Made by a program: the position numbers and the translations under genes. The notes below the pieces were generated by a model that was given only the letters and a program-made list of their open reading frames with translations, made no database searches and had not been told where the DNA came from. Shown here piece after piece: positions 1,179-17,546 of a DNA stretch of 36,884 nt (positions within the stretch are counted from its first letter, which is position 1; each line of letters begins with the position of its first letter). Origin of the DNA: Alphaproteobacteria bacterium (lineage in GTDB: Bacteria > Pseudomonadota > Alphaproteobacteria > Micavibrionales > Micavibrionaceae); NCBI GenBank assembly GCA_030426925.1, contig JAUHXT010000014.1, positions 1 through 36,884 on the forward strand, given 5' to 3'.

Positions 1179-1179
1179 T

Positions 1180-2586
1180 ATGAAGAACAGAAAACAGGAA
1201 AACGGCTTTACACTGCTGGAAATGCTTCTGGCTGTCGGGGTTTTGGCTGCGTCTTTACTGTTGATTACGCGGTTGTTCGAGGATACGGCCCGTGGCGCGC
1301 TCTATGAAAAAAACAGGGTCTTTTTCGATTCTGTTATGGGGGCGTCGATGGACATGGTCGATACGATGAGCGAATTCGATACGGTTTATGCCTTGTTGCA
1401 AACACAGCCGGCTGGCGTAATGGAAATACCGCTAACCAATGATCCCGTAAATGCAGGGGTTAACCCATTTAATATATCGGTGCAAACAGGAAGTGCTGCA
1501 CAAAATATTAGGCCCAGCACAACGTTTGCCAACACGAATTTCATTGAAACAGGCCCGATTGGAACAAGGATAAGCGTGGTCATGCAGGCGCTGGATGATC
1601 TGGGAGATCCGAATGATGAGCGAAGCATCGGGGTTTTTGTCGTTGGCCTTGATCCCATTTCTGAACGGGATTTGCGCGCCGCATCGTCTGCGCTTGGCGC
1701 TGGCGGTGGGTTTATCAGTGTGGTGGAGGAAAGGCCCGGTTTGTGCCTTCCGGCAGGCTGCACCAATACCATTCGTAGTATTCACAATTCCTGGCAGGTT
1801 GACGCATCGGCAATGGCCGGCGTTCGGTTCGGTGTACAAATTACAGGAACGCCTGCAGACACGGTAAACGGCGGATACCTGGCGGCGTTCCGCTTTATAA
1901 GTGAAAGCGAGATAGCAGGTGATTATCTATATCGTCTGCCGCAACTGACCCGCCCCGAACTCAATACCATGAATACGGACATATTAATGTCCGGAAACAA
2001 TATCGTTGGTGTTGATAATATCGTCCTTGATCAGGACATGACCACGACCGGGGACATGAGCATATATGCCAAAGGCTCCATCTTTGCGGCAGGAAGGCTA
2101 AGTGTAGAAGGCGGTGATTTGGTTGTCGACGGCGATGCGGAAACAGGAAACCTGAATGTCGGGTCCAATTATAACGATGCAGGCTTGAATATTCCCAGCC
2201 GGAATCAGGTAACTGTAGAGAACCAGTTTCTGGCAACGGACGTTACGGCCAATGGAAACCTGATTGCGGATACAGGCGTTGTTACGACCAGCCTGCTGGC
2301 ACCGTCCATCCGTTCCAATGATACGACAATCAGTACGCTGGATGCCACGGCGGCACCGGGTGTTTTTGCAGGTCAAACGGATGCAAGCAACCTGAATGTT
2401 ACTGGTATTGCGCGAACAGGGCTGACCACAGGAAGTGGCGGCATTGCGGTAGACAGCGGAACCACGGGTGTGCTGGAAATGATAGCAAATGGCAATGCTA
2501 TCGTAAGCGGACAAACCACTGCTTCTTCGGCCAATTTCAACGATGTTGATATCCGGCTTTTGGAAGAATGTCTGTCTGGCTGTTAA
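1180..2586 (+). CDS. PilV-like type IV prepilin with long fibre-like C-terminus
   Basis: 468 residues from the ATG at 1180. I chose this start because it puts a class-III-type prepilin leader at the N-terminus: a short basic leader, then Gly-Phe-Thr-Leu-Leu-Glu with Glu at mature position 5, then about 20 hydrophobic residues. A prepilin peptidase would cut after that Gly. The remainder is large for a pilin. From about residue 260 it carries PilV-style repeats (Asn-x-Met..., then Gly-x-Leu-x-Val-x-Gly units) like those of the upstream gene. It begins one base after the upstream stop, so the pair is probably co-translated. Role by family: minor or tip pilin of a type IVb pilus. I saw no shufflon recombinase gene or inversion sites, so variation by inversion is not supported. 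Confidence 0.75.
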   Translation: MKNRKQENGFTLLEMLLAVGVLAASLLLITRLFEDTARGALYEKNRVFFDSVMGASMDMVDTMSEFDTVYALLQTQPAGVMEIPLTNDPVNAGVNPFNISVQTGSAAQNIRPSTTFANTNFIETGPIGTRISVVMQALDDLGDPNDERSIGVFVVGLDPISERDLRAASSALGAGGGFISVVEERPGLCLPAGCTNTIRSIHNSWQVDASAMAGVRFGVQITGTPADTVNGGYLAAFRFISESEIAGDYLYRLPQLTRPELNTMNTDILMSGNNIVGVDNIVLDQDMTTTGDMSIYAKGSIFAAGRLSVEGGDLVVDGDAETGNLNVGSNYNDAGLNIPSRNQVTVENQFLATDVTANGNLIADTGVVTTSLLAPSIRSNDTTISTLDATAAPGVFAGQTDASNLNVTGIARTGLTTGSGGIAVDSGTTGVLEMIANGNAIVSGQTTASSANFNDVDIRLLEECLSGC

Positions 2587-2611
2587 CGGTTTGATCATTT
2601 ACAATAATAGT

Positions 2612-3568
2612 ATGGCTGAAACATCATCGGCAAAAATTTTCATATTAATAACGCTTTGCGCAGGTATCGCGATGGCGGTATTTTGCCCGTCCGTAGCAAC
2701 GGCGCAGGATACTGTCCCTCCGATTTCCGGGCTTGAGGACAATGATAATATTCAGCTGCCGCTGGTCATGGGAACCAACCGCTTTGCAACGGACAATGCC
2801 TATCTTGAAGATACATTGCATCTGCAATACCAGATTAGCTTGCTCGAACGCATGGTTGAACGGCAGGCGGGAATCGCGCGCCTGGAAAAAAACTATCTGG
2901 ATTTGGGTGTTTCGTTTGACCAGCCGGTACCGCCCCACGGCATTTGCAGACAGATTCCGGCCAATATCCCATGTTTTCGCGCTTATCCTGATTTATACGA
3001 TGTCGTCTTGCCCGAATTCAGCATGCTGGAAGTGGAAGACGAACCCGCACCCATACAGGAAACAATAGAGCAGTCCGAACCGCAAGTGGAAGAACCGGTC
3101 GTAGAAGCTACTCCGCCACAACTGTCAGATTCTTACCGGTGGGCAGATGTTTTATGCGGTGGTGGAGTTTGTTCATCGACCCTGATCAAAACAACGAATC
3201 CCGGATTTCGGCGAACAGTACAGCAAGGGGACACGCTCGAAGACGGTAGCATTACGATCAAAACAATTTCGTCCGGCGGTGTGTTTGTCATAGAAAACGG
3301 CAAGGAAATAGAACTGGAATCGGCCTTGTCGCCGGCACGTGGCGGACCGTCTTCATCGCGCCTCGGTCCGTCAAATACACCGCAGGAAGCATTGCTTGAT
3401 AACCCGAATGGTGAATTTCTGCGCGATGTTTTGAGCAACGATGCGGACGTTTCGGAATTGAATAACGTATTTGACGAAGAATCATTGGGTGACCAGCCAT
3501 TGCCCGTTCCCGAAGACGAGCCGATCGAAGATCCCGGCTCTCCATTGGGGCCGACAGGTTTATTCTAG
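2612..3568 (+). CDS. secreted PilP/GspC-like protein, pilus-linked
   Basis: 318 residues from the ATG at 2612. This start gives a clean Sec signal peptide (hydrophobic core, then Ser-Val-Ala-Thr-Ala before Gln-Asp); an earlier ATG at 2543 would overlap the previous gene and spoil it. After a short coiled stretch (about residues 60-95) and a Pro/Glu-rich linker comes a compact domain at about residues 175-245. It starts YRWADVLCGGGVC and ends in a Gly-Asp-x-Leu...Ile...Gly-Val-x-Val pattern, resembling the HR domain of PilP/GspC proteins that dock onto an outer-membrane secretin. The tail is acidic and Pro-rich. It follows the two PilV-like genes by 25 bases. Its stop codon overlaps that of flgL on the other strand. 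The PilP-like reading is an inference from pattern; no family search was possible. Confidence 0.55.
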   Translation: MAETSSAKIFILITLCAGIAMAVFCPSVATAQDTVPPISGLEDNDNIQLPLVMGTNRFATDNAYLEDTLHLQYQISLLERMVERQAGIARLEKNYLDLGVSFDQPVPPHGICRQIPANIPCFRAYPDLYDVVLPEFSMLEVEDEPAPIQETIEQSEPQVEEPVVEATPPQLSDSYRWADVLCGGGVCSSTLIKTTNPGFRRTVQQGDTLEDGSITIKTISSGGVFVIENGKEIELESALSPARGGPSSSRLGPSNTPQEALLDNPNGEFLRDVLSNDADVSELNNVFDEESLGDQPLPVPEDEPIEDPGSPLGPTGLF

Positions 3569-4695
3569 CCTCTGAAATAATTCACAAGGCTAAGCTGCGA
3601 TATAGTAGCGGTCACTGTATAAGAAGCTTCCAGCTGAATTTTCAGGCTATTTATTTTCGCTGCAACTTCCGTAATGTCTGCGTTTTCCACTTCATCGACA
3701 GTGTCCTGAAAAGTCTTTTTCTCGAACCTGTAGAATTCGTTTAACTTGTCCATCTGTACCTGCGTTTGCGCTAGCTGGTAACGGTTACCGTCAACTTTAT
3801 CGACGGCGGCACTCAATGTGGCGGACAGATTGTCCAGAACCTGGAAAAAGTTTTCTTGTTTTTCGGCCGGTGGAAAGGGTGGTGTGTCCCCGGCAAAGGT
3901 TGTCGCCGTGGGATCGTTCAGCGCGCCTGGTGCATATTCCGGTGGCGGCAGGTCCTTTAAAACACCGACAGCCATAATAATTTCGCGCAAGGCTTCCGTA
4001 TTGCCCAGAACGGTATAATCAATTTGTTTATTGTCATCAACACGGGCAACGAGTTTTCCTGCTTCACCGCTTGTTAGCGGCGCAGAATACCCCAATGTTG
4101 TGTCATCCACGGCTTCGTAGGAAGCTATAAATTCTTCTGTCGTGATTGTACCGCTACCCCACAGGCCGATAGCGCCTGATGCTGCCAGGGGCGGCGCTGT
4201 CAGATCCAGTTCGTCAGGGACATATTCTCCCAGAAAACTGCTAAGTAGGCCGGTATTCACCAGCGGTTTTGTATCAGAATCCGATCCGGCAAAAAGATAG
4301 CGGTCACCGTCTTTCGTATTGACCAGATCGACCAGGAAATCATACACGTTGTTTGCCAGAGCCTGAATGGTTTCAAAATCCGGGTAGTCCCCTTGTGACG
4401 GCGATATGGTCAGGGAGTTAATAAGTATTCCCGCTTGTTCCTGTATCTGGTTCAGCGCCAGGTCCATTTGTTCAATCCGCCGGTTCACATTGGTAATGTT
4501 GTTCGTATAAGTTTCGATCGAATTGATATTGGCCCGTGACCGCTTCGAATAAATGACATCTTTATCCAGTCCGGCAAAGCTCTGGGTCTTTTTCCCGGTC
4601 GTTAACTGGGCCGCCAGATCGTCAAAAATACTTTGCTGTGATTGCAGGCGGTTGATCTGGTTTAATGCCTGTCCCAGAGTTGAAATACCTGTCAT
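3565..4695 (-). CDS. flgL: flagellar hook-filament junction protein FlgL
   Basis: 376 residues, a usual length for FlgL. The N-terminal helix has the flagellin-like pattern (Leu-x-Gln-x-Asn-Arg-Leu-Gln-Ser-Gln, then a TGKK turn). The C-terminal helix ends in a flagellin-type Leu-Glu-Ala-Ser-Tyr segment. These two ends form the conserved D0/D1 coiled coil that polymerises at the hook-filament junction. It follows flgK by 19 bases, with AGGAG eight bases before the ATG, so the two form one transcription unit. Its TAG stop overlaps the TAG stop of the convergent plus-strand gene in a CTAG palindrome. Weak point: the central variable region cannot be checked. Confidence 0.9.
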   Translation of the reverse strand: MTGISTLGQALNQINRLQSQQSIFDDLAAQLTTGKKTQSFAGLDKDVIYSKRSRANINSIETYTNNITNVNRRIEQMDLALNQIQEQAGILINSLTISPSQGDYPDFETIQALANNVYDFLVDLVNTKDGDRYLFAGSDSDTKPLVNTGLLSSFLGEYVPDELDLTAPPLAASGAIGLWGSGTITTEEFIASYEAVDDTTLGYSAPLTSGEAGKLVARVDDNKQIDYTVLGNTEALREIIMAVGVLKDLPPPEYAPGALNDPTATTFAGDTPPFPPAEKQENFFQVLDNLSATLSAAVDKVDGNRYQLAQTQVQMDKLNEFYRFEKKTFQDTVDEVENADITEVAAKINSLKIQLEASYTVTATISQLSLVNYFRG

Positions 4696-4714
4696 TGCCT
4701 TGCTCCTTTATTCA

Positions 4715-7180
4715 TTAACGAACCGCGTTCAGCAGCTCTTCAAACATTTCATCAACGGCTGTCACCGTTCTTGCGGCTGCCGAATAGGCAGTCTGCACCA
4801 GAATCAACGTAGACAGCTCTTCATCAATGTTGACCCCCGATTCATCCAGTAACCGCGTTTCCAAAAGATTGCGTAATGTATCTTCATCGGCGTATGCCGC
4901 CTCAACTGTTGCCAGATCCTGCGATTGGGATGTCACCATTTTTTGCGCGTAATCAATCAATGTATCGCTGGAAATAACGCCGGTGCTGATATTGGCGTTC
5001 TGCCCCAAATAATTAAAACGGAACGGGGTAAAGGTTCCGGACCCGACACCGAGCGTTTGTGAAGTTTCTGATTGATAATCGACGCTGGAAATGGGTGTAG
5101 CCGTACCGAACAGGGATTCAACAATATTGGCGCCAACCATTGCTACGCCTGTACCGTCAGCAGTTCCCTGCCCGGCGATAAAGCGCATGGCGCCACCAAA
5201 ATAAGGTCCACCAAGCGCCGTATCATCAATGCCCGGACGTAGTGTCAGCGTTCCGGCGGCGAAGGCCGTATCGTCAACCAGAAGGCCGGGAACGCCCGGA
5301 TCGGCGGAGGAAATTTTCTGAAGTTTGTCCAGAAGCGTAAGCTCTGTATCACCCGGTTCAATTTCAATGCGCACCGGTTCGTTGTTGCCGATTTGTATAT
5401 CGAAATAGGGGTGTTCCGTTTCAAACAGCTGTTCGCCGGTGCCAAAAATTCCCTGGAACATATCGTTACCCATCGCATTGGGAAAACCGGTACTGATAAA
5501 TTCGACATCACCACGGCTTTCCATGACGAACTGACCAAATGCGTTGATATTTGCACGGGCCACAATATCAGTCGGAATATTACCCAGGCCTTCTTCGGTA
5601 ATGATTGTATCATTAATAAAGGCCACAAGCTGGTCCAGGGCGTTATCGATTGTGCCGTCTGCCAGAGTGCCGCTGGGGTCAATGTTCCCGATCGCGAAGG
5701 CTGCGTTCGCGCCCAGATCGCTTAGATCAACACTGATAGTTGCCAGTGTTGGCAACCCATCACGATCGTAAAGTTGAATCTGGAACTCATCATCATTCGG
5801 GTAATTCAGCGCGTATTCAGACAGCGCCGTAATGAGGTCGCTGGTATTCGCCCCTGCGCTGTCAATTTCGGTATATTGCGTCAGGTCGGGCCCCAAAACC
5901 ACCTGGTTTTCCGAATACAGTCCCAAATGTTCCTGTAAATCCAGTACACCGGTCGTAAGGTCAACCGTACCAACTGCTTCCTGATAGGCTGTGTCCCCGA
6001 AGGTGAATTCGAGGATACGTGATAATATTTCACTGGATCCGTTCAGGATCGGGACATCGGATGAATAGGTTCCACGCTGTAAAAGTGTGTTATCGGCAAC
6101 GATGGCATCATTCACCTGTATCACGGACGCAAACCCGACATACGGAACCGGCGCTAATGTTCCCGGATCCAGTTCCGGCGGCGTATCGGCAGGCACTACG
6201 CCACTTGAATCTGTGAAAAGTCGCAGACCTTGTTCTTCAAAACGCAGCGCAGTTTTGTGCGCCAGCTCGTCAATTTGCGCCTGATAGCGCGGCATGGTCT
6301 CATCCCGTAATTCGATTAATGCACCAAGCCGTCCGCCAAGATTACTGCGTGTTACATCAATCGCGCCGGGGTTGGTGGACGGGCTGCCGCCGACATATAA
6401 ACCGGAAATATTGGTTGGGTACGTGCTGGTCGCACTGATCAGGCTTGGGTCGAAATGAAGCTCGTGCACATTTTCGTCCGCCAGAAGAACGCCCTGCGCT
6501 GTCTGCACGACCATCACCCCGTCTCCACGCTGGAAGAAAGTGACCTTGAGGTTATCGGACAGTTCTTTGACCGCCTGATCACGTAAATCTTCGAGGTCGG
6601 CGGTAGAACGGCCAAGACCGGCGGCTCCCCTGATCTGGTTGTTCAAATCAGTTATCTGGTTCAAGAGGCCGTTGACCCGCTCGACAACGACCTCCATTTC
6701 GTCCTGCGCGTCATTGCGCAATGTGTTTACCAGATCGCCGAAATCATTGAATTTCGAAGCGACGATTTGCGCCTGGCCCAGAACCGTGCGTTGCAGGAAC
6801 GTGTCGTTCGGGTTATCTGCCAGCGCGGCAATTTCGTCTTTCAGATTGGATAATTCCGCCGCAATAGACAGTTCGCTGTCCGGCGGTCCATGAAAGGCGA
6901 CAATACGGTTCATATAGGTTTGCTGGACGTCCATAGCGGCCACAGAACTGATTTGTGTCCATAGATCACGCGCCAGATTCAGGTCGACATTGCGGATAAT
7001 AACTTCGCTTCGTACACCAAAAGCTTCCCCGCTGCCCTGAATAACTGCCGAGCTTTGGGGCAATATTTTCCGTGTATATCCCTCTGTGCCGACATTGGAT
7101 ACGTTATTGGAAATCGTGTTCAGCTGTAGCTGGGCAACTCTTAATCCCGATAAAGCAGAGTTAAGTGCCTGAAATGACAT
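4715..7180 (-). CDS. flgK: flagellar hook-associated protein FlgK
   Basis: 821 residues, clearly longer than enterobacterial FlgK (about 550). The N-terminus has the flagellar rod/hook signature (Ser-Gly-Leu-Arg-Val-Ala-Gln, then NNVSNVGTEGYTRK). The C-terminus has the matching helix, ending Ala-Ala-Arg-Thr-Val-Thr-Ala-Val-Asp-Glu-Met. The extra length lies in the central region (about residues 300-650), the surface-exposed part in this family. The protein caps the hook and joins it to the filament, together with FlgL just downstream. Start: the ATG at 7180 has AAAGGAA seven bases upstream. A sigma-54 promoter motif lies 60-80 bases upstream of the start, as expected for a late flagellar gene in several alphaproteobacteria. 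Confidence 0.93.
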   Translation of the reverse strand: MSFQALNSALSGLRVAQLQLNTISNNVSNVGTEGYTRKILPQSSAVIQGSGEAFGVRSEVIIRNVDLNLARDLWTQISSVAAMDVQQTYMNRIVAFHGPPDSELSIAAELSNLKDEIAALADNPNDTFLQRTVLGQAQIVASKFNDFGDLVNTLRNDAQDEMEVVVERVNGLLNQITDLNNQIRGAAGLGRSTADLEDLRDQAVKELSDNLKVTFFQRGDGVMVVQTAQGVLLADENVHELHFDPSLISATSTYPTNISGLYVGGSPSTNPGAIDVTRSNLGGRLGALIELRDETMPRYQAQIDELAHKTALRFEEQGLRLFTDSSGVVPADTPPELDPGTLAPVPYVGFASVIQVNDAIVADNTLLQRGTYSSDVPILNGSSEILSRILEFTFGDTAYQEAVGTVDLTTGVLDLQEHLGLYSENQVVLGPDLTQYTEIDSAGANTSDLITALSEYALNYPNDDEFQIQLYDRDGLPTLATISVDLSDLGANAAFAIGNIDPSGTLADGTIDNALDQLVAFINDTIITEEGLGNIPTDIVARANINAFGQFVMESRGDVEFISTGFPNAMGNDMFQGIFGTGEQLFETEHPYFDIQIGNNEPVRIEIEPGDTELTLLDKLQKISSADPGVPGLLVDDTAFAAGTLTLRPGIDDTALGGPYFGGAMRFIAGQGTADGTGVAMVGANIVESLFGTATPISSVDYQSETSQTLGVGSGTFTPFRFNYLGQNANISTGVISSDTLIDYAQKMVTSQSQDLATVEAAYADEDTLRNLLETRLLDESGVNIDEELSTLILVQTAYSAAARTVTAVDEMFEELLNAVR

Positions 7181-7277: not shown

Positions 7278-8993
7278 TTAGTTACCGAAAGCTTCGGTTG
7301 AACGCAGGATAATGGCCTGCGCAGCATCCTGTTCGCTCCTGATGCCGTCTTCCAGCAGCATGGAAATAAGCATTTCGCGGCGCAGGATAGCGTCGTAAAT
7401 ATCGCGGTCCTGCATCAGTTCAATGCCTTTCATTGCGGCACGCATGCGTTCCACATTGGTGGGCTTGTCATACAGGTTCGTGATGAAATTTGGGTGCTGG
7501 TACATTTTTTTGGTAATCAGCTCCATTTGTGCGTAATAGCTGGGGCGTGCGCCGATAAGTTCTGTGACTTCCCCGTCCGGTAATCCAAAATCCTGAACCA
7601 GGGCACGCATAAACGGCGTGGCATCGTCTTCGAAAACCGGCCCGTTTATTTTTTCAGAGATAATGTTCGACATCGTGTTGCGCGCCACAGATCGCATGGC
7701 AGAAACCGAGCGTAAATCCTGATATGCGTCGAGAATTTTTTCAGACGCGCTCACTGCCGGCGGAAGGTATGTGTTTGTTTCGGATGTAAACAGGTTGTTC
7801 ATCAATGAAAAAACATTGCGTTCGTCATTCGTGACTCCGGGATCATTAAAATCGATATCCAGCGTCAGAGGCTGTGATACAAGGTTTATAAAATCTATAT
7901 CCGCGTTTCTGTTGGCGGGCGCTGTCTCTTCCAGACAGGTTTGCTCCAGTCCTTGCGCGTTATCCAGCTGGTTACAGTTATAATCTTCGAAAGTTTCCTT
8001 TCGCGTAAACATGTCACTTTGCCGGCTTTTGAAAGTCTGGTTCCGCCCGGAAGCCAGTTCGCGGGAACGCATCTTTTCATTGAATGCTGTCTTCGCCACT
8101 TTCATATGGCCTTCTGATAAGGCCAGATGGCGGACCATGGTGCCGATCGTGCACATTTGTTCGCTCGGGTGGTAGTCTTTATGTGCCTTCGCCTGAAGCT
8201 GCTGAATGATCCTTTGCGTTTCAAGTTGCTGCTTGGCGTCCAGAAACTGCCCGATTATGTTAGTCTGTTGTTCCATAGCAACATTCAGCTGCTCGGTCAT
8301 CGTCATCAATGACTGTATCCAGTATTCCTGAAACTCAAAGTGGAATGGGGCAATGCCGCCACCGCCAATGCCACCAATGCCAGGCAGCTGTACTGTCTGT
8401 ATATTGTTATTGTTCAATCCGTGGCAAACAGACATATTGCCGCCTCTGTATCCCCCGATATCCATGCAAACATTCGCAACGCCGGATCTGGCGTTATAAA
8501 CCACGCCTTTCAAGGAGGTTTTGCCGCTCCAGTCCGACCGGATGTCTTGTTCGACCGTACGGTCGTTGATGCGCAGGCTGGTTGTTGTCGTATCGTCAAG
8601 GCCGGACGCGCTGGCCTGTATCATTCCTGTCTTCCTGTCGACCACGAATGATACGTCCATCGGCTTGTTGAAACCTTCTGGCTGAATATTAATCAGAATA
8701 TGATAGCTGTCTTTGTCAAAAATATTTTGGCTGTCTTCGAATATGAGCGTGTCAACTTCATGCGCAGTATCTTCATAAAGCAGGGCATAATCGTCACCGG
8801 ATATCGTTTCGATGCGCACAAAATCGCCGGAGTGAATACCTGTAATGTTTGAAACGGCCTCTGCCGGAAGAATTGTGGAGTTTTTAATAAGAAAAAACCC
8901 GCTTAGCCCGAAAAGGAAGGCCAGCCCGAAAAGCGCAGGGATTTTTTTGCGGCCTGTCAATTTGGAAGATATGGGAGAAAGCTGCAACGTCAT
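7278..8993 (-). CDS. T4SS-linked paralog C of a three-gene family, unknown function
   Basis: 571 residues from the ATG at 8993, preferred over a GTG at 9020. The ATG lies one base after the upstream stop and has GGAG six bases before it, embedded in the end of the preceding gene. The protein has a basic N-terminus and a hydrophobic anchor (about residues 18-35), then a unique region of about 190 residues with a Cys-x(14)-Cys pair. From about residue 232 to the end comes the domain shared with the two upstream genes. It starts MTEQLNVAM, runs through a long amphipathic helix (QFLDAKQQLETQR), a KDYHPSEQMC turn and a Cys...Asp-Asn...Gly-Leu-Glu...Cys segment, and ends with RPSYYAQMEL, NLYDKP and a C-terminal helix. 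Most likely inner-membrane anchored with the domain in the periplasm (inference). I do not recognise the family; the helix is loosely VirB5-like, which is not enough to name it. Confidence 0.8.
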   Translation of the reverse strand: MTLQLSPISSKLTGRKKIPALFGLAFLFGLSGFFLIKNSTILPAEAVSNITGIHSGDFVRIETISGDDYALLYEDTAHEVDTLIFEDSQNIFDKDSYHILINIQPEGFNKPMDVSFVVDRKTGMIQASASGLDDTTTTSLRINDRTVEQDIRSDWSGKTSLKGVVYNARSGVANVCMDIGGYRGGNMSVCHGLNNNNIQTVQLPGIGGIGGGGIAPFHFEFQEYWIQSLMTMTEQLNVAMEQQTNIIGQFLDAKQQLETQRIIQQLQAKAHKDYHPSEQMCTIGTMVRHLALSEGHMKVAKTAFNEKMRSRELASGRNQTFKSRQSDMFTRKETFEDYNCNQLDNAQGLEQTCLEETAPANRNADIDFINLVSQPLTLDIDFNDPGVTNDERNVFSLMNNLFTSETNTYLPPAVSASEKILDAYQDLRSVSAMRSVARNTMSNIISEKINGPVFEDDATPFMRALVQDFGLPDGEVTELIGARPSYYAQMELITKKMYQHPNFITNLYDKPTNVERMRAAMKGIELMQDRDIYDAILRREMLISMLLEDGIRSEQDAAQAIILRSTEAFGN

Positions 8994-8994
8994 C

Positions 8995-10329
8995 CTATTC
9001 TCCGCCCGGATTCGTGACACCTATTTGTCCCAGCTGGTCGACTTCGTTACGGTAGTTCTGCTGTTCTTCATCGATGGCAGTTTCCAGCAGAACAGACAAG
9101 GCCATCTCAGACCGTAAAAGGCTGCGGAACATATCGCGCTTTTGCATCAGCTCAATGGCCTGCATCGCGACTTGCTTTCTTTGTACGTTGACCGGCTTGT
9201 CGTACAGGTTGGTATAGAAATTCGGGTGCTGGTACATTTTCTTTCCCAGCATTTCCATCTGTGCGTAGTAACTTGGTCGCTCACCCAGCATTTCTGTAAT
9301 TTCCGCATCCGGCAATCCGAAATCCTGCAACATGGCAAACATGAACGGTTGAACTTCCGGCGCGCCTTGGGACTTTTGCGCAAGGATAGAGGCAAAAGAG
9401 TTTTGTGCGACACTACGTTTTGCAATCACCGAACGCATGCCTAAAAAGGCGCTGGTCGCCTGTTCCAGTTGGTCGCCTTCCGCATCGGTCAGGAATGATT
9501 CTGGAATCTGGCTGGGTGTTTTATGTCCGTAAAGATAAGCAGCAAGAGCAAATACATCCTCTTCGTCCGGAGTCGGTGGCCCTGCCCCTTCGGCAGTAAA
9601 ATCAAGCTCGAGTGTCATCGGAGATTCAAAAGTCCGCGTAAAGTCGATATCTTTATTTTGCCGGTTTGCCGGCCCGCCGCCACCGCATAACAATTCCAGC
9701 CCCATGGCGTTATCCAGCGGATTACAATACGTGTTTTTAAATTGCTCAAGCCGGCTTGTACGGTCTGAGGATTCACCGTTCAGACTTAAAACGTCACCGG
9801 CTACCAACTGACGCTGCATGGTTCGGTTAGAAATTACAACGGTGTTAAATTCCGTTGATCTGTCGGACGATGCAAGCGAACGCACGTTCGTTCCAATCTG
9901 ACAAAGCCCTTCGCTCGGATGATAATCTTTATGTGCCTGTGCCTGTAGTTCCTGAAACAGCCGCTGTGTTTCCAGCTGGTGCTTGGCATCCAGAAACTGC
10001 CCGATCATGTTCGTTTGCTGCATCATCGCAACAGTCAACTGTTCGGTCATCGCCATATAGGCAGGAAGGATATATTCTTCAAAAAATACATCGACCAGCC
10101 ACGTCTGGTGAGCCAAAAATCCTTGGGTTATATGATCCCGTGTGCCGGCGTGAAAGCCGTCATGAGCCGCTTCACAAACAGCACATCCTACAGATGGAGG
10201 TTTTGGTTCGGGAATAAGCCCGGCAAAAGATAGCGGAGCCGCAAACACGGTTACCATGAAAACCATACCGCACAGTGCCACGCGGAATCTGTTTTTCAAA
10301 AACGAATATTTCTGTTGAACGGTATTCAT
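8995..10329 (-). CDS. T4SS-linked paralog B of a three-gene family, unknown function
   Basis: 444 residues and the simplest member: a Sec signal peptide (cleavage expected after Leu-Ser-Phe-Ala), a short unique stretch with a Cys-x-x-Cys pair (about residues 49-52), then the shared domain from residue 94 to the end. Over its first 60 residues the domain is nearly identical to that of the upstream paralog (MTEQLxVAM, QTNMIGQFLDAKHQLETQR, KDYHPSEGxC). Three cysteines are conserved across all three paralogs: one after the PSE motif and two flanking a DNxxGLE motif, suggesting disulfides and a periplasmic location. The start at 10329 is preceded by GGGAG lying in the last codons of the upstream gene, so translation is probably coupled. 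Not a known family to me. Confidence 0.85.
   Translation of the reverse strand: MNTVQQKYSFLKNRFRVALCGMVFMVTVFAAPLSFAGLIPEPKPPSVGCAVCEAAHDGFHAGTRDHITQGFLAHQTWLVDVFFEEYILPAYMAMTEQLTVAMMQQTNMIGQFLDAKHQLETQRLFQELQAQAHKDYHPSEGLCQIGTNVRSLASSDRSTEFNTVVISNRTMQRQLVAGDVLSLNGESSDRTSRLEQFKNTYCNPLDNAMGLELLCGGGGPANRQNKDIDFTRTFESPMTLELDFTAEGAGPPTPDEEDVFALAAYLYGHKTPSQIPESFLTDAEGDQLEQATSAFLGMRSVIAKRSVAQNSFASILAQKSQGAPEVQPFMFAMLQDFGLPDAEITEMLGERPSYYAQMEMLGKKMYQHPNFYTNLYDKPVNVQRKQVAMQAIELMQKRDMFRSLLRSEMALSVLLETAIDEEQQNYRNEVDQLGQIGVTNPGGE
9908..10018. repeat. diverged direct repeat, copy in paralog B (partner 11245-11355)
   Basis: This 111-base stretch aligns without gaps with 11245-11355 at a constant offset of 1337 bases, with only scattered mismatches. 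Both encode the most conserved part of the shared domain. It reflects gene duplication kept similar by selection or gene conversion, not a mobile element. Confidence 0.7.
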
Positions 10330-10334
10330 TCTTA

Positions 10335-12707
10335 TTATTCTCCCGCTCCCTGTTGCTCTGCTGTTCCGCGAACTGCAGAATCAATTTCACTGCTGATACG
10401 TTCTTGTTCTTTAATAAGTTTCATTTCCAGCAAGACGGATAAAAGGGCTTCGCTACGGATCAGCGTCTTATATATGTCACGGTCCTGCATCAAACCGATG
10501 GCCTGCAGTGCAGCAGCCTTACGGGATACGTTGACAGGTTTATCATACAGGTTGGTATAGAAATTCGGATTTTGGTAAAGCTTTTTGGTCAGCACTTCCA
10601 TTTGTGCGAAATAACTTGGCCGTTCCCCAAGGATCTGGATGATTTCCTCATCCGGCAGTCCCAGATCCTGCACTACCGCGTAAAGGAAGGGCTGTACCTC
10701 CGGTGCGCCGGAGGTTTTCATACCCGCAATTGTTGCAAAAGAGTTCATGGCAACAGAACGCTTCGCGGCAATGGAGCGCACATCGAGATACAAGCTGTCA
10801 CCTTCATTACGGTTGGTCGCTTCGTTCGACATCCATGTATCTTTCATGTATGGCAGTGGCTTGCTTGCATATAAGTTGGATGCCAGGGCGAACACATCTT
10901 CTTCATCGGGAGTGGGGGGACCCGCGCCTTCGGCGGTGAAATCCATATCAAGGGTGAGAACCGTTTCCATGGTGCGTGTGAAATCAACATCTTTGTTTTG
11001 CCGTGCGGGTTGGTCTGCCTGACATAAGAATTCGAGCCCGTTATTGTTGTCTGCAACGTTACAATGAAGATTGCGGTAATGTGTGAGACGGCTTTGTGCA
11101 TCCGAGCCCGAGCTTTCCTTGGTGGACTTTTCACCGGACAATAATTGCCGCTGCATCGTATGATTGGCAATCGCGGTTGTGCTCAAATCCGCATAACGTT
11201 CGGAAGACGCAAGGGAACGCACGTTCGTTCCGATCGTACACATGCCTTCACTCGGGTGGTAATCTTTGTGTGCCTGCGCCTGAAGTTCCTGGAACAGCCG
11301 CTGTGTTTCCAACTGGTGCTTGGCGTCCAGAAACTGCCCGATCATGTTTGTTTGCATTTCCATGGCGACGTTCAACTGTTCGGTCATGGTCATGAGCATC
11401 GGCAGCCAGTTTTCCAAAAACCATGTTTCAACCATCCACAGCTGGGTCAATTCAAGTTCTGAATCGGCGGCCGGGGTTGCCTCATTAAAGAAGTAATCTT
11501 CCGTAATTTCATGAAGTTGCTGAACATACGGCAAAACAAGAAGACAGTTACAGATGGCGGCACCAAAAATTCCCAGAACAGCCCCCGCAACAGCGCCTAA
11601 AGCACTCCCAGCAAGACCTCCAAAATCACCAGTCAGTCCGAAGGCCGCCAGGATTTCCGCACCACCACCACTGGCCAGGGCCGCCAGTCCGCCGCCACCT
11701 GTCAGCGCATCAAGAGACGCAAGAGATTCCGGTGAAAGTGCGCCTTCCAATGCGCCAACCAGCGGGTCACCGGCCTCAAGGCCGGATATAAGTCCCAATG
11801 CACCAACCGGGTCGGTGGCAAGAAGATTGTCAATTAACGCGCCGGCATCCGCGATATCCAGGTCACCGCCGGCGATCAGGTTGTTCAGGGCCTCACCACC
11901 TATATCGGCCAGGTCACCGCCGGCCGCGCCAAGTGCGCCCAGCACTTGTTGTGCCGCTGCCGCGCCTTGTGTTTGTAAAACGTCCTGTGCAAAGTTTGCG
12001 GCATAGCCTGCGGGGTCATTTGCCAATGCCGCCGCATCAAATGGCAGGTCTAGGCTTCCTGCTACCAGCGGGATGGCGCTGGCCGGGTCCTGTACCAGCC
12101 CTATCGCCTGCTGCACCTGTTGCGGTGTGGCAAAATTTGTAAATTCCGCCGCAAGTTCGGCGCCGCGGATTGGATCGTTAATAACCTCGTTGATTGTCTG
12201 ATAAGCAGCTGTTGCCTGCTCAACCGGCATGGAAGCCAGCAATTGTCCGGCAATCTGTGTGCCTTCGTTAACGGCAATGTCGGTGGCAAGGTTTTGTACA
12301 GTCGCGACATCCAGACCCTGGACGAACTGTACCGTATCGGCAATGTTACCTGCTGCGCCCATAACTTGCGGACCGTATTGGTCAACGGCTGCACGAATAC
12401 CCTCAACACTGCTGGTGTCGACGCCGGAGGGCAAGCCGGCTTCGTTAAAAGTAATACCGGACAAAACCTGATCATAGGCCTCTCCACCCAGTGCCCGCCC
12501 ATTTTCTATGACGCTTGTAACGTCGCTGATGGTTGAACTGGTCCCTTCGCCGATAGAACCAAGCGTACCAGCCAGCGTCGGGTTTGAACTCTGCGCATAA
12601 GTTTGCTGCACGACAAGGGAAAAAATCGCCAGCCCTGTCAAAATGACAGGAAGACAATTTGCCCGTATAGATCTCGAAATTTTTACTGCCTTTGCCCCTA
12701 GTCTCAT
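10335..12707 (-). CDS. T4SS-linked paralog A with long Ala/Gly-rich N-terminal region
   Basis: 790 residues. The layout is a signal peptide (about 1-39, ending Gln-Thr-Tyr-Ala), then roughly 320 residues of low-complexity sequence rich in Ala, Gly, Asp and Leu with recurring amphipathic segments. A strongly hydrophobic glycine/alanine segment follows (about 365-398), containing Cys-Asn-Cys. The domain shared with the two downstream paralogs spans residue 441 to the end, with the same three conserved cysteines. It is the first gene of the minus-strand operon and is divergent from the icmL operon, which links it to the secretion system. The start has only a weak ribosome-binding site (GTGAG). 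The membrane segment between secreted region and domain makes topology uncertain. Function unknown. Confidence 0.82.
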   Translation of the reverse strand: MRLGAKAVKISRSIRANCLPVILTGLAIFSLVVQQTYAQSSNPTLAGTLGSIGEGTSSTISDVTSVIENGRALGGEAYDQVLSGITFNEAGLPSGVDTSSVEGIRAAVDQYGPQVMGAAGNIADTVQFVQGLDVATVQNLATDIAVNEGTQIAGQLLASMPVEQATAAYQTINEVINDPIRGAELAAEFTNFATPQQVQQAIGLVQDPASAIPLVAGSLDLPFDAAALANDPAGYAANFAQDVLQTQGAAAAQQVLGALGAAGGDLADIGGEALNNLIAGGDLDIADAGALIDNLLATDPVGALGLISGLEAGDPLVGALEGALSPESLASLDALTGGGGLAALASGGGAEILAAFGLTGDFGGLAGSALGAVAGAVLGIFGAAICNCLLVLPYVQQLHEITEDYFFNEATPAADSELELTQLWMVETWFLENWLPMLMTMTEQLNVAMEMQTNMIGQFLDAKHQLETQRLFQELQAQAHKDYHPSEGMCTIGTNVRSLASSERYADLSTTAIANHTMQRQLLSGEKSTKESSGSDAQSRLTHYRNLHCNVADNNNGLEFLCQADQPARQNKDVDFTRTMETVLTLDMDFTAEGAGPPTPDEEDVFALASNLYASKPLPYMKDTWMSNEATNRNEGDSLYLDVRSIAAKRSVAMNSFATIAGMKTSGAPEVQPFLYAVVQDLGLPDEEIIQILGERPSYFAQMEVLTKKLYQNPNFYTNLYDKPVNVSRKAAALQAIGLMQDRDIYKTLIRSEALLSVLLEMKLIKEQERISSEIDSAVRGTAEQQGAGE
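11245..11355. repeat. diverged direct repeat, copy in paralog A (partner 9908-10018)
   Basis: This is the second copy of the 111-base similarity described for paralog B. The stretch encodes the long helix and the KDYHPSEG turn of the shared domain. The level of match is high enough that recombination between the two genes is conceivable. Confidence 0.7.
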
Positions 12708-12907: not shown

Positions 12908-13687
12908 ATGGGTCAACCGATCGTTGGATTCTCGATAATGTCAGATAACACAGAAGATTCAGAACAAAAGGCAGGTGCTCAGGATTTGCGCGCGGCTAAA
13001 AAGAAACGCACGCCGTCCACGGGCAGGCCGGTAAAAAAGGGAAAGGTGAAGGCCGATTCCTCCGACAATGCCGATCTGGGCAACGTTGTCGTTCGCAATG
13101 AATTTTACCGGGACGGTTACCGTCTTGCGTTGCGTGCCGCCGTAGTACAAAGCTTTGTCATCCTGTTTCTGGTCGGGGCGATGTATTATGTCGTCCACGT
13201 GCATCAGCCCAAAGATCTCTACTTTGCCACGACAGTTGACGGCCGTGTTATTCCGATGGTTCCGCTGGATGAACCGAACCTGAGCCGTCCGGCCTTGATG
13301 GCGTGGGTCGCGCAAGCCGCAACGGAAACCATGACGTTCGGTTTCAGTGATTACCGCCGACGTTTGCAGGAATCATCCCGCCACTTTACGAAATCCGGCT
13401 GGGTCGCATTCGCGAAAGAACTGGCGGATATTAAATTAATTGAAACGGTGGAGGCAAATTACCAGCTGGTCACCGCTGCGCCTGCTGCTGCGCCAATTAT
13501 TGAAGAAGAAACTATAAAAGGCGGGCGATATCAATGGGTTGTGCGTATGCCGCTGGTATTGTCCTATCAGTCCCGGGAATCAACAAAAACGGATCAATGG
13601 ATGGTCACGCTGGTTATTGTGCGTGTTCCGCGTCTGGAAAGTCCAAATGGTGTGGGAATCGCACAATGGATTGCTGCACCTGCCTAG
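12908..13687 (+). CDS. icmL: type IV secretion inner-membrane protein IcmL/DotI (TraM-like)
   Basis: 259 residues from 12908; an ATG at 12938 is an equally good start (249 residues) and neither has a clear ribosome-binding site. The cytoplasmic N-terminus is long and basic, one membrane segment lies at about residues 74-97, and a periplasmic domain follows. The block around residues 65-135 (RDGYRLALRAAVVQS, VVHVHQPKDLYFATTVDGR, then Trp-Val-Ala-Gln-Ala) is characteristic of DotI/IcmL and IncI TraM. The periplasmic domain resembles VirB8, which helps assemble the secretion channel. It is slightly longer than the Legionella protein because of the extra basic N-terminus. It is the first gene of the core cluster and is followed in canonical order by dotH- and dotG-like genes. 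Confidence 0.9.
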   Translation: MGQPIVGFSIMSDNTEDSEQKAGAQDLRAAKKKRTPSTGRPVKKGKVKADSSDNADLGNVVVRNEFYRDGYRLALRAAVVQSFVILFLVGAMYYVVHVHQPKDLYFATTVDGRVIPMVPLDEPNLSRPALMAWVAQAATETMTFGFSDYRRRLQESSRHFTKSGWVAFAKELADIKLIETVEANYQLVTAAPAAAPIIEEETIKGGRYQWVVRMPLVLSYQSRESTKTDQWMVTLVIVRVPRLESPNGVGIAQWIAAPA

Positions 13688-13779
13688 GAAAGCGCTTATA
13701 CTGCTGAAAGAGAATCTTTTGATGAACTGCCAATCAACCACCGTTTTTGCTTATACTAATGTCAGGATTTCAGCGAACC

Positions 13780-14883
13780 ATGAAGGGTAAAACACCAATT
13801 TACAGCCTGATTTTGTGTGCCTTGATGCTGGGCGCGGCACCGGTCGCGGTGCATGCGCAGGATGATGTGACATCCGGCGTTAGCGCCCCGGCACCGTCTT
13901 GGCGCGATCTGGTCGCTGCTGAAGAAGAGGAAGCGTCCGAAGACGATATTTTTGAAACAGGTGACAGCTCAACGGCATTGCCGGAAGCGAGCGCCAGCCC
14001 CAGAGGGGATGATCTTGAATCGCTTCAGGATGGCGGCACATATACTATTCCCGCTCGCCGCGAAGCGACACAGGAACAACTGCAGGAAAGTATCCGTGAG
14101 GAAGCGTTTGATGCGGCTGTTACCGGGCTTTTCCCTTTAAAGCCTGCACAAATTCAGGAACTTCTGAAATATTATGATGACACAACAAAGGTCGTGGAAA
14201 GCCCCCCGTATACTTTGCCGACTCCCGAAGTAGCGGTGCAGACAATATCTTTGGACCCCGGTGTTGTGCCGCCGACAATCAACGTTGCGGTTGGGCACGT
14301 GACGACATTGAATATCCTGGACATTACCGGCGCGCCGTGGCCGGTCCATGACGTGAGCTGGGCCGGTGATTTCGAGGTGGTGGAACCGCAGGAAGGCGGT
14401 CATATGATCCGGATTACGCCGATGTCTGAATTTGCGTACGGAAACTTATCTATTCGTCTTCTAACATTAAAAACGCCGCTGACCTTTTCTTTAAGAACCG
14501 CGCGGGACAAGGTGCATTACCGCATGGATGCGCGTGTGCCGGAATATGGCCCTTACGCCGAGGCCAGCTTGATTGACGGAACGAGCGAACTGCGCGCCGG
14601 AAGCCCGTTGATGACATCGGTTCTGGACGGCGCGCCGCCTTCCGATGTGGTCCGTCTGGATGTCGTTGGCGTGGATGGCCGCACCACGGCCTATCGCCAG
14701 AACGGAATTCTGTACATTCGCACACCGCTGAACCTGTTGTCCCCCGGATGGCGCAGTTCAGTGTCCTCCGCCGACGGTATGCATGTTTATGCGTTGAACG
14801 ATACGCCTGTCGTCTTGCTGTCTGATGAGGGCAAATTCACCCGCGCGACAATCACTGAAAAGAAGGACGTTTTTGATGAGTGA
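13780..14883 (+). CDS. icmK: type IV secretion outer-membrane core protein IcmK/DotH (TraN-like)
   Basis: 367 residues from the ATG at 13780, chosen because it gives a clean signal peptide ending Ala-Val-His-Ala before Gln-Asp-Asp; an upstream ATG at 13747 would add eleven residues. The length fits DotH (about 360). The N-terminal half is acidic and likely disordered. The conserved C-terminal half (about residues 160-360) has the family pattern: Asn-Val-x-x-Gly-His-Val-Thr-Thr, then Asp-Ile-Thr-Gly-x-Pro-Trp-Pro, then a beta-rich domain. DotH forms part of the outer-membrane ring with DotC, DotD and DotG; neither DotC nor DotD is encoded in this window. The gene overlaps the next start by eight bases, so the genes are translationally coupled. 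Confidence 0.9.
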   Translation: MKGKTPIYSLILCALMLGAAPVAVHAQDDVTSGVSAPAPSWRDLVAAEEEEASEDDIFETGDSSTALPEASASPRGDDLESLQDGGTYTIPARREATQEQLQESIREEAFDAAVTGLFPLKPAQIQELLKYYDDTTKVVESPPYTLPTPEVAVQTISLDPGVVPPTINVAVGHVTTLNILDITGAPWPVHDVSWAGDFEVVEPQEGGHMIRITPMSEFAYGNLSIRLLTLKTPLTFSLRTARDKVHYRMDARVPEYGPYAEASLIDGTSELRAGSPLMTSVLDGAPPSDVVRLDVVGVDGRTTAYRQNGILYIRTPLNLLSPGWRSSVSSADGMHVYALNDTPVVLLSDEGKFTRATITEKKDVFDE

Positions 14884-16150
14884 TAATGGCAACAACGATG
14901 ATGCCATCGACTTCGACGAGGATGTTGGCTTCGACGAAGAGTCCGGCTTTGATGATTTTAGCAATTCCGGCAGTCTGGGCGATTTGTGGAAAAACAACCC
15001 TATGGTCAAAATCGGCACGATTCTGGCCGTTATTGCCATAATTGTATTTGCGATTTTCCTGTTTGGCGGTGGTAAGAAACGCGAGCCGTCGTCCGATTTG
15101 CGCGCTGCGCCGGAATCCAATGATCTGGGGGCACAGGAAAGCGTCGTATCAGATGTATACCGGGAAGCGGTAGAGTCCCGAAACGAAGACAATGTTGAAA
15201 GAGCGCTGGGGACCGGCGGTAGTGCATTGCCGTATACGGTCGATCCCGCCCGCGGACGTATTGCGCCTGAAATCGAAGAAGATCCGGAAGAAGATCCGCT
15301 GGAGCGCTGGCGTAAACTGCAGGAGCAACGGTTGAGGCAGCAGCCCCAAAGGCCGGAACGTCAACGTATCGTATCGGAAGAACCACCTGTCGATACCCGC
15401 GCCCAGGCAGTCAATGCGCTGTCTCAGGCGATGGCAACGCAGATGGAGGGAATTCTCGGCGCAAGGGAAATTCCAGAGCTGCAGATCGAACAGATTACGC
15501 CTGTTGAATTCGTCCAGGACTTGCAGGACAAGAAAGAAGCGAAGCTGGAAGAGCAGAGAAAAGCGCAGGAAGAGCTGGCGCAGGCCGATGACATCAACCA
15601 GATTATTTTGCTGCCTGCCGGTGAAATCGAATACGGCCAGTTAATCACAGAAGCCAATTCCGATACGCCCGGCCCCGTTTTGGTGCAGATCGTGTCCGGA
15701 CCGCTCAAAAACTCAAAACTTCTGGGCAGCTTTAAAGTCGAAGACGACTACCTGATTTTAAGTTTTAACCAGATCGTGATCGACGGGATCAGCTATCCCG
15801 CGAACGCCGTGGCTCTGGACCCTGCTACAGCCAATGTCGGTATGGCCACGGAAGTCGACCATCGGTACTTCACGCGCGTCATTTTACCGGCCGCCGCAGC
15901 CTTTGTTGAAGGGCTTGCGGGCGCTATTTCCGAATCTGAAAGTACAACCGTATCCATCGACGGCAGCACCACGACTTCGACCGAAGAAGATCTGGATGCC
16001 CGTCAGGAAGCGGCAAAAGGGGTGGAAGAGCTGGGCTCACAGGTTGGTGACACCCTTGATGACATTGCCGGAGAAACAAAGACTCTTGTACGGGTTGCGG
16101 CGGGAACGCCGGTCGGTATATTATTCACCGAACCCGTAGTTCAGGATTAA
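14876..16150 (+). CDS. icmE: type IV secretion channel protein IcmE/DotG (TraO-like, VirB10 fold)
   Basis: 424 residues from the ATG at 14876, which has AAGGA about nine bases upstream and overlaps icmK. A very acidic cytoplasmic tail (residues 1-40) precedes one membrane segment (about 43-63). Then come a Glu/Arg-rich linker with a coiled-coil stretch and a C-terminal TrbI/VirB10-like domain (about 220-400) with the hallmark Leu-Pro-Ala-Gly-Glu-Ile and the run from Gly-Pro-Val-Leu-Val to Phe-Asn-x-Ile-Val-Ile-Asp-Gly. It spans the envelope from inner to outer membrane. It is far shorter than Legionella DotG (about 1050) because the long pentapeptide-repeat region is absent; its size matches IncI TraO instead. 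Confidence 0.92.
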   Translation: MSDNGNNDDAIDFDEDVGFDEESGFDDFSNSGSLGDLWKNNPMVKIGTILAVIAIIVFAIFLFGGGKKREPSSDLRAAPESNDLGAQESVVSDVYREAVESRNEDNVERALGTGGSALPYTVDPARGRIAPEIEEDPEEDPLERWRKLQEQRLRQQPQRPERQRIVSEEPPVDTRAQAVNALSQAMATQMEGILGAREIPELQIEQITPVEFVQDLQDKKEAKLEEQRKAQEELAQADDINQIILLPAGEIEYGQLITEANSDTPGPVLVQIVSGPLKNSKLLGSFKVEDDYLILSFNQIVIDGISYPANAVALDPATANVGMATEVDHRYFTRVILPAAAAFVEGLAGAISESESTTVSIDGSTTTSTEEDLDARQEAAKGVEELGSQVGDTLDDIAGETKTLVRVAAGTPVGILFTEPVVQD

Positions 16151-16154
16151 GAGT

Positions 16155-17546
16155 ATGCAAGATAAAGATGAAGATAAAGACTTTGAAGACGATTTCGACG
16201 ACATGGACTTCATGGACGCCGACGATGATTTCAGCGATGAAGAGCTTGATGAGGAGCTGACTGAAGAGGACCTCGACTTTCTGGAAGAAGATACAGCTTT
16301 CGGTGAGGAAGAAGACTGGGACGAAGAAGATTTCGGTGAGGAAGAGCAGACCGACGGCAAAAAGAAAAAGAAGAAAAAAGCTCCGAAATCCAAAAAACCC
16401 CTGAGCATTAACACGATGGTGGTGTTGGGCGCTGTGGTTATTGGTGCGGTCGTTATGGTCTGGTCGCTGGCCCAGCCTGAAAAAGACCAGTTGCCCAAAG
16501 AACGCCCGTTCCAGTCTGCGCTGTCCCCGCAGGGTCAGGCGAACAATCCGGTTACTGTACCGGCCAATCAGGCCAAACAGCAACGCATCGAGCGTGAGAA
16601 TGAAACACAGGAAGGCGGCTTCCTGAAAAATCCCTCTGAAATTGACGGCTCTCCGGCTCCGCAACCATCAATGGATGCGCCGGAAGTAGACAGTATTCTT
16701 GGCGATGTTGCCCCGCCAATGCCGGCCCCGATTGTGTCTGATGATACGGGTATGGATTCGGCTCTGACCCCTATGCCTGATTTGGCGCAGGATGACACAG
16801 GCGATGCCCTGCCGGTTCCGCGTGCGCCCGAACCGGAAATCGCGGACTCCGGACAGGAAGACTCTATGAGCGCGGCAGAGCTTTTGGAAAACAAGATTGC
16901 CCAGCGTCAGCAGGCCATGACAGACGAGGAAGAAGTACCGCAGGAAGTCGTGGAAGAAGATGTCGAAGAGGTTATGGAAGTAGAGCTTCCGCCTGCTCCG
17001 GAACCGGAATTGGCCGAAACGCCTGAGGAGGAAGGTTTTGGCATGGACATGCCGTCTCCCGCAACGCCGGACATCGAAGAAACAGCTATGGAAGACGACA
17101 TGGAGATGGATGTGCCGCCAAGCCCGTCTGTGTCCAGCGCCGAAATGGAATCGCTGCAGGATGAACTGGACACAACACGGGATGAGCTGGCAAAGGTCCG
17201 CAGTAGCAGCAAAGAAGAAATTGCATCTTTGAACGCCGAAATTGAAAAACTGAAGGCTGAACTCGATAAAAAATCCGCACAGCCTGCTGCTGTGAAGTCC
17301 GAAACGGCAGCCCCTGCGAAAAAGGCTGCTCCCAAGAAAGCGGCTGCCAAGCCAAAAGCACGGACGAAAAGCTGGGAATTGCGGGCGGCCATGCCGGGCA
17401 AGGCCTGGGTGTCTGAATCCGGAAGCAAGGAAATGCGCTCCGTTGTTGTTGGTGATTCGCTATCCGGCATCGGTCGCGTGACGGCTATTACTTATAATAA
17501 TGGCGTTTGGGTGGTTCAGGGAACACAGGGCGCAATTAAACAATAA
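16155..17546 (+). CDS. icmG: IcmG/DotF-like (TraP-like) bitopic type IV secretion protein
   Basis: 463 residues. The first 66 are almost entirely Asp/Glu with Phe/Leu, followed by a lysine cluster and a single membrane segment at about 84-106. Next is a long Pro/Glu-rich periplasmic linker, a coiled coil at about 330-375, an Ala/Lys linker, and a compact C-terminal domain of about 60 residues (starting SWELRAAMPGKAWV). That domain ends in a Gly-Asp-x-Leu-x-Gly-Ile...Gly-Val-Trp-Val-Val-Gln-Gly pattern. The architecture and position directly after dotG match DotF/IcmG; direct sequence similarity in the linker is not expected. The start lies four bases after the dotG stop. Confidence is lower than for its neighbours because recognition depends on layout and gene order. 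Confidence 0.75.
   Translation: MQDKDEDKDFEDDFDDMDFMDADDDFSDEELDEELTEEDLDFLEEDTAFGEEEDWDEEDFGEEEQTDGKKKKKKKAPKSKKPLSINTMVVLGAVVIGAVVMVWSLAQPEKDQLPKERPFQSALSPQGQANNPVTVPANQAKQQRIERENETQEGGFLKNPSEIDGSPAPQPSMDAPEVDSILGDVAPPMPAPIVSDDTGMDSALTPMPDLAQDDTGDALPVPRAPEPEIADSGQEDSMSAAELLENKIAQRQQAMTDEEEVPQEVVEEDVEEVMEVELPPAPEPELAETPEEEGFGMDMPSPATPDIEETAMEDDMEMDVPPSPSVSSAEMESLQDELDTTRDELAKVRSSSKEEIASLNAEIEKLKAELDKKSAQPAAVKSETAAPAKKAAPKKAAAKPKARTKSWELRAAMPGKAWVSESGSKEMRSVVVGDSLSGIGRVTAITYNNGVWVVQGTQGAIKQ

Follow-up and report, generated by a model that had tools for sequence, protein, structure and literature searches.

Multiplied IcmX/TraW-like genes in Micavibrio relatives and a probable hetero-oligomeric crown of their I-type secretion machine

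The window analysed here, a stretch of 36,884 nt from an alphaproteobacterium of the family Micavibrionaceae (JAUHXT010000014.1 of assembly GCA_030426925.1; the whole of contig C26 of genome G000 in our set), carries three adjacent paralogous genes on its minus strand (7278–12707), and we conclude that their products are divergent members of the IcmX/TraW (VirB5-class) family. IcmX caps the central channel of the Legionella-type secretion machine, and Legionella has one IcmX gene. Among Micavibrio relatives, the normally single IcmX-like gene is multiplied up to five, a number equal to the subunit number of the known ring. What is new is the copy number and the build of the proteins, the domain itself being already known. 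On balance we favor the notion that the paralogs together form an IcmX crown that is hetero-oligomeric, and probably hetero-pentameric, and whose N-termini are specialized.

The genes are named PAR3 (10335–12707), PAR2 (8995–10329) and PAR1 (7278–9020, the last gene of the array). PAR3 (790 aa) consists of a signal peptide, an Ala/Gly-rich region, a hydrophobic segment and the IcmX-like domain (nucleotides ~10338–11447); PAR2 (444 aa) of a signal peptide, a CxxC motif and the domain; and PAR1 (580 aa, GTG start) of an anchor helix, an immunoglobulin (Ig)-like beta region (~51–207) and the domain (~228–579). Common to all three is the helical C-terminal domain of ~350 residues, in which PAR2 is 61% identical to PAR3 (residues 74–433) and 52% to PAR1 (83–424), far above chance. 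The QFLDAK-QLETQR helix, the KDYHPSE and NLYDKP blocks and three cysteines are invariant across PAR1–PAR3. The cysteines (C107, C166 and C179 in mature PAR2 numbering) are likewise invariant in a 115-sequence alignment that mixes all array positions; when 28 more diverse sequences are aligned, the first two remain conserved to at least 90% and the third less. With PAR2 as query, no copy besides these three was found in the own assembly, which has 2.14 Mb and is 99.84% complete. PAR3 and PAR2 are 5 nt apart, and PAR2 and PAR1 overlap by 26 nt with the GTG start, or would be separated by ~1 nt if an inner ATG of PAR1 were used; we infer that the three genes are probably translationally coupled. 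The array is divergent from DotI/IcmL, which starts at 12908. The open reading frames and the identities bear out the initial annotation, which had described three adjacent minus-strand genes with a shared C-terminal domain and had named the above motifs and cysteines. Its further description, namely differing N-termini and an array divergent from the secretion operon, agrees with the reading frames, with inspection of the N-termini of PAR2 and PAR3 by eye and with the PAR1 model (helix 30–46, strands 56–203).

None of PAR1–PAR3 matched a Pfam or NCBIfam model above cut-off or a PDB sequence, and viral contigs held no relatives of the domain with the query used. An AlphaFold model of mature PAR2, built from 115 sequences of the window and homologous loci, is all-helical with a mean predicted local distance difference test (pLDDT) score of 90.2. 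Searched with Foldseek against 350,542 PDB chains, it gave one match at E ≤ 0.001, chain AP1 of 9ngy (E 6.6e-4, probability 1.00, 12% identity, TM-score 0.34). Entry 9ngy is the Legionella DotA-IcmX protochannel as seen in situ; residue numbers 23–458 of chain AP1 suit IcmX but not DotA, which is far longer. In VIA, the same chain aligned with the PAR2 model at Z 13.4 over 281 residues, followed by a second row at Z 5.9; since the root-mean-square deviation (rmsd) of 13.2 is large, the match is one of arrangement with bending. The full-length PAR1 model (32-row alignment, pLDDT 71.5) also had 9ngy AP1 as its top VIA row, with Z 11.0 and an rmsd of 5.9 over 265 residues. No other VirB5 structure (TraC, TrwJ, CagL) appeared among the Foldseek and VIA rows shown, which excludes nothing.

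The fold match is joined by a profile match. A profile of seven TraW-position proteins, encoded on plasmids of Alpha-, Beta- and Gammaproteobacteria and of a Nitratidesulfovibrio, was aligned with the domain family by hhalign at 98.4% (E 4.6e-15, 313 columns, colinear), and at 99.4% (E 3.8e-21) when a broader family alignment was used (297–313 columns across both runs). Two reversed and five column-shuffled controls as well as seven other families (FlgK, FlgL, DotI, DotG, DotF, DotH and g138) reached at most 0.9%. The plasmid profile in turn matched annotated IncI1 TraW at 90% (E 1.6e-6), and in the own genome it matched PAR2 (E 2.6e-7) and PAR3 (E 5.5e-4) only. Membership in the IcmX/TraW family follows from these two results, the fold match to the DotA-IcmX protochannel and the profile match to TraW-position proteins; the domain is not the undescribed component that it had at first been taken for.

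Matches to DotI, DotH, DotG, DotF, DotN and DotA were all found in the own genome. In a class-wide sample of 289 genomes the domain occurred in five, the own genome and two of its family included, and all five were among the 13 genomes with DotH; together with DotI adjoining most arrays, this upholds the proposed tie of the domain to the I-type (Dot/Icm) machine. In a set of 58 genomes (the own genome and 57 relatives) with the domain in 52 (broad profile), DotH in 51 and DotA in 55, four genomes have the domain without DotH (G015, G016, G020 and G054, all 77–88% complete). DotH without the domain was seen in G026, G039 and G055, and neither of the two in G028, G031 and G042, all three of which have DotA. 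In a stretch of G026 (L045, G026:C90:2000–21000), DotH-DotG-DotF were matched with no IcmX-like or DotI match, and IcmX may have been replaced there or have diverged very far. Family f7 yielded no domain match with the narrower profile A2; with the broader profile A3, four of the five f7 genomes showed a single copy each.

For gene order we used 66 organism-labelled array loci, a biased sample left from the best 80 of 124 matches, and a second set of 34 array loci that overlaps with it in genomes. Labels in the former are Micavibrio sp., Alphaproteobacteria, Proteobacteria and Pseudomonadota, plus one Micavibrio aeruginosavorus (L072) and one contig of a Verrucomicrobia metagenome-assembled genome (L092). 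DotI stands divergent and directly beside the array in 50 of the 66 and 25 of the 34 loci, the other arrays lying at a contig border or apart, and flgK directly follows the array in 50/66. An invariable placement beside DotI had to be dismissed, as array and DotH are ~290 kb apart on one contig in G023 and on different contigs in G002 and G006. The relaxase family PF03432, the sole one searched, was found in 18/58 genomes, own included, which makes a purely conjugative role of the machine unlikely. Three f3 genomes (L047, L053, L054) have two adjacent DotI-like genes before DotH.

A hand tally of IcmX-like genes over the 58 genomes, in which counts from incomplete genomes are lower bounds, gave five genes in 23, four in 10, four or five in one (G011, split contig), three in nine, two in three and one in six genomes, with none found in six. 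Two pieces were counted as one gene in G036, where a stop breaks it, and in G053 and G057, where complementary pieces lie on different contigs. Six or more genes were present in none of the genomes counted; apparent excesses, with one genome reaching nine matches, resolved into five genes upon match listing and mapping. Among 40 organism-labelled loci bounded by DotI and FlgK, nine hold three genes, five hold four and 26 hold five. Families f3 and f5 comprise 11 genomes, nine of which have five genes in the form of a four-gene array plus one unlinked gene, the remainder being G046 (fragmentary, four genes) and G050 (one gene seen). The one-contig genome G022 combines two IcmX-like with three DotA genes.

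The copies of five-gene arrays are old and position-specific. In a FastTree tree of 220 tips, the nearest sequence from another five-gene locus belonged to the same position in 136 of 145 tips, across genera, and the same was true for 28 of 30 tips from three-gene arrays; the nearest tip lay within the same locus in only 26/220. The 'last' genes formed one clade (27/27, L035 and L042 left out), in which PAR1 groups as well. In an IQ-TREE analysis of 21 five-gene arrays (19 organism-labelled ones plus L035 and L042), 19 of the 21 'last' genes fell into one clade (support 93). The other four positions tell a less uniform history: genes 1–4 go back to one group-specific ancestor in a group of eight genomes (support 99) and likewise in a group of five (support 92), whereas in a group of six they derive from two pairs (supports 100 and 99). 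L042 seemingly had an expansion of its own (support 92 for genes 1–4, 41 with the last gene included). The unlinked genes of f3/f5 form one clade (11/11, support 100), and the f3/f5 copies, comprising array genes of four genomes and the unlinked ones of eleven, make up further separate clades (1+2 with support 98, 3+4 with support 86). Because genome groups reach five by different branchings, it seems that five copies arose several times separately and were not exceeded in these genomes.

Both halves of the protochannel, IcmX and DotA, are multiplied in this family. The own genome encodes four tandem DotA/TraY genes (~920–1020 aa; L128/L129) on the minus strand of a contig other than the window (G000:C42:98056–109755); the 27 other family genomes among the 28 read have three, with position kept in 79 of 81 tips. 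Outside this family, the stretches read in 12 genomes of the order hold DotA once in eight, twice in three and fourfold in one. DotH is single in all 51 genomes having it. Seeming DotA-DotA fusions, open frames of 1812–1876 aa with two DotA matches, proved at the DNA level to be separate genes split by stops.

The paralogs differ most in what precedes the common domain. Of 96 N-terminal stretches examined, 38 fall into one similarity group with PAR1, whose modeled N-terminus combines the anchor helix with two Ig-like sandwiches (best fold matches to designed Ig dimers, Z 10.0 and 9.6); PAR3-like N-termini are Ala/Gly-rich. A Pfam scan of the 96 stretches at E ≤ 0.01 found a lysozyme, an M23 and a transglycosylase-like domain in one each. 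The lysozyme, of the phage-type GH24 family, is the N-terminus of L115 (PF00959, E 1.7e-10, 41.7 bits versus a gathering score of 22.3); by eye, its Glu, Asp and Thr are spaced by 9 and 15, as in the catalytic triad of T4 lysozyme. The N-termini of L056, L057 and L064 share H91, D95, H197 and H199 in 3/3, with H-x3-D and HxH motifs that make up the full M23-type set of zinc ligands; a PDB profile search led to M23 peptidases (best E 0.011). As their best Pfam score stays below gathering (23.1 bits, E 8.6e-5, versus 28.7), we call them only M23-like. Eleven further proteins, three unlinked f3 genes included, weakly resemble lytic transglycosylases: a Glu and GxxQF are invariant, Pfam SLT appeared in 3/11 (best 0.01, below cut-off), PF06737 in one (0.0036), and PDB profile hits had E 0.14–0.49 with one unrelated enzyme among four rows; hhalign against one plasmid enzyme was negative. 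These eleven N-termini are possibly lytic-transglycosylase domains. One or more N-termini of these three kinds occur in 9/66 organism-labelled loci. For the L062 N-terminus a SleB-like domain was considered, and for L069 a beta-helix; Pfam supported neither, and both ideas were abandoned. By eye, a cysteine-rich stretch with Asn-His often bridges N-terminus and domain. In two position-2 genes (L062:11400–13343 and L076:7939–9732) the domain match is far longer than usual, which suggests an insertion after the cysteine region.

How could these features be combined? VirB5 and IcmX are reported to be pentamers (PMC9259494, PMC12857230, PMC12981334), and IcmX with DotA builds the pentameric central protochannel in Legionella (PMC12857230, PMC12981334). 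We propose that the single IcmX has been replaced by ordered, closely linked and diverged subunits, three in the own genome and up to five elsewhere, that would join in a mixed ring on a DotA base that has diversified as well (four genes in the own genome). Where all five genes are present, the ring would most likely be a hetero-pentamer. The conserved C-terminal domain would form the ring, and the N-termini, which differ from subunit to subunit (Ig-like or Ala/Gly-rich and, in relatives, also lysozyme- or peptidase-like), would project from the channel, allowing single subunits to bind or open a target envelope. The results themselves comprise family membership, association with the machine, linkage in most loci, copy numbers and the position-specific orthology of five-gene arrays, whereas the make-up of the ring, the placement of the N-termini at the tip and a part in predation are proposals. 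The initial annotation had thought of a hetero-oligomeric pilus or tip component; copy number and orthology are best read as a hetero-oligomeric tip, while nothing was found pointing to a pilus. A stricter version is tentative and in our judgment rather improbable as a whole, namely an obligate hetero-pentamer of five IcmX/VirB5-class subunits that evolved repeatedly by duplication up to the ring number, with peptidoglycan hydrolases or adhesin-like domains on single positions, by which an epibiotic predator breaches the prey envelope.

Several observations speak against the mixed crown or the family assignment behind it. The TM-score of the PAR2 match is low and its VIA rmsd high, helical models may reach Z ~13 in VIA without kinship, and the Foldseek list of the PAR1 model is headed by beta-domain matches, not by IcmX. 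The family alignment compared with the single IncI1 TraW sequence gave a non-significant 1.2%, so that the link to IncI1 TraW passes through the plasmid proteins. Four-gene arrays, which in the tree include other families, kept position in only 21 of 40 tips (5, 2, 10 and 4 of 10 for positions 1, 2, 3 and last), PAR2 and PAR3 are closer to one another than to any other sequence of the tree, and gene conversion within lineages could mimic part of the pattern of separate duplications. Most genomes, own included, have fewer than five genes, some of them being incomplete. In three family genomes (G026, the one with DotH, G028 and G031), no IcmX-like gene was detectable alongside the three DotA genes that each of them carries. 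Finally, f3/f5 pair five IcmX genes with mostly one or two DotA genes, and IcmX and DotA counts are thus not coupled one to one.

As an alternative, each paralog might form its own homo-pentamer, the cell swapping or mixing machines with different tips for different prey. The strong differences between paralog N-termini would suit such tips. A comparable proposal exists for TrwJ and TrwL, both duplicated, of the Bartonella Trw system, where VirB5- and VirB6-class duplicates carry sequence variants (PMC2610397, PMC12857230). Exchangeable tips are, however, hard to reconcile with five-gene sets that are ordered and position-specific across genera, with the absence of any counted genome above five and with recent copies being a minority (the same-locus tips mentioned above), and we consider them unlikely. 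Still less probable is that one paralog serves as the working IcmX and the others have become secreted or periplasmic enzymes and adhesins reusing the domain: enzyme-like N-termini do sit on single paralogs, one gene is unlinked in two families and the third cysteine is missing from some sequences of the diverse alignment, but the invariance of all three cysteines in the alignment mixing all positions and the conserved number and order in five-gene sets argue against it. Equally doubtful are homo-pentameric layers, one per paralog, piled along the axis into a longer channel with gene order as layer order, which would agree with the fixed order and old divergence of the five-gene sets and with long, variable N-termini, but would leave the limit at five without a reason and do not fit the multiplied DotA base.

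The divergent operon beside the array encodes, on the plus strand, DotI/IcmL (12908–13687; PF11393, E 6.2e-57), DotH/IcmK (13747–14883; PF12293, E 8.2e-81), the VirB10-like DotG/IcmE (14825–16150; TrbI PF03743 above cut-off at E 1.2e-9, NF033900 below it at E 6.4e-48), a DotF/IcmG-like protein (16155–17546; NF038218, E 1.4e-10, below cut-off), DotN/IcmJ (18274–18951; NF038221, E 1.4e-28, 99.8 bits versus a cut-off of 100) and, following DotN, a 1008-aa probable DotO/IcmB ATPase (19023–22049) with a weak TraC match (E 0.01). For the DotN/IcmJ-like protein there is, in addition, a match to the IscB model NF040563 that stays below cut-off (E 1.1e-7). A TraQ-domain protein with a 340-residue N-terminal extension (24292–25851, minus strand; NF033883, E 2.8e-10, below cut-off) is encoded outside the operon here; many relatives keep this gene between DotF and the g138 gene. 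Near the secretion genes of the window (23831), and likewise close to the unlinked IcmX-like gene of L184 and L185 in f3, there is a P-II regulator gene.

On the other side, flgL and flgK (3565–7180, minus strand) directly follow the array, as in most relatives. A flagellar role of the array was rejected, as the pair is inverted or not seen beside some arrays and the fold suggests IcmX; the inversion concerns L028 and L119. Beside flgL, weakly shufflon/PilV-like and prepilin-like genes occupy 21–3568 (plus strand). L051 and L052 likewise have a g341-shufB-shufA block next to their arrays, reminiscent of the pairing of an I-type type IV secretion system with a type IV pilus in IncI plasmids.

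Among the best-ranked papers of our literature searches (4 to 20 of up to 265), none dealt with these paralogs as judged by titles and abstract openings, with subscription papers and preprints outside our scope. The M. aeruginosavorus genome paper states that evidence for type III or IV secretion is lacking (PMC3189940); the DotI, DotH, DotG and DotA matches in this lineage suggest the opposite. How the IcmX-DotA channel opens is a live question in Dot/Icm biology (PMC12981334, PMC12857230). Non-identical subunits would provide a natural set in which each ring position can be tagged, removed or altered alone, making symmetry breaking, tip location and target contact directly testable. If it is true that copy number stops at five owing to five places in the ring, genome counts alone would report quaternary structure.

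Four known systems invite comparison. Legionella IcmX (9ngy) shares the fold over most of the domain, is exported and belongs to a genome with DotI, DotH, DotG, DotF, DotN and DotA, but identity in structural alignments is only ~10–12%, and there are here up to five paralogs with conserved cysteines and large variable N-terminal domains, arrayed beside DotI and usually flgK/flgL. With TraW of IncI1 and the TraW-position proteins of related I-type plasmids, the common ground is the colinear profile match to the latter, and DotA/TraY is annotated nearby in six of seven plasmid stretches (not within that of Aminobacter) and in ColIb-P9; a TraX-like neighbor was tested in the Shinella stretch only. 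Unlike here, one gene per plasmid stretch was seen, with no long N-terminal extension, and in our genome DotA lies on another contig. In the Bartonella Trw system, both classes corresponding to those multiplied here, TrwJ (VirB5) and TrwI (VirB6), are amplified in one machine as well (PMC2610397), although that machine is related to that of plasmid R388 and its copies are seen there as host-receptor variants and not as fixed ring positions. Rickettsiales (Anaplasma), finally, likewise have several channel-base paralogs in one machine (PMC7648143), though that machine is of another type and the VirB6 class alone is concerned.

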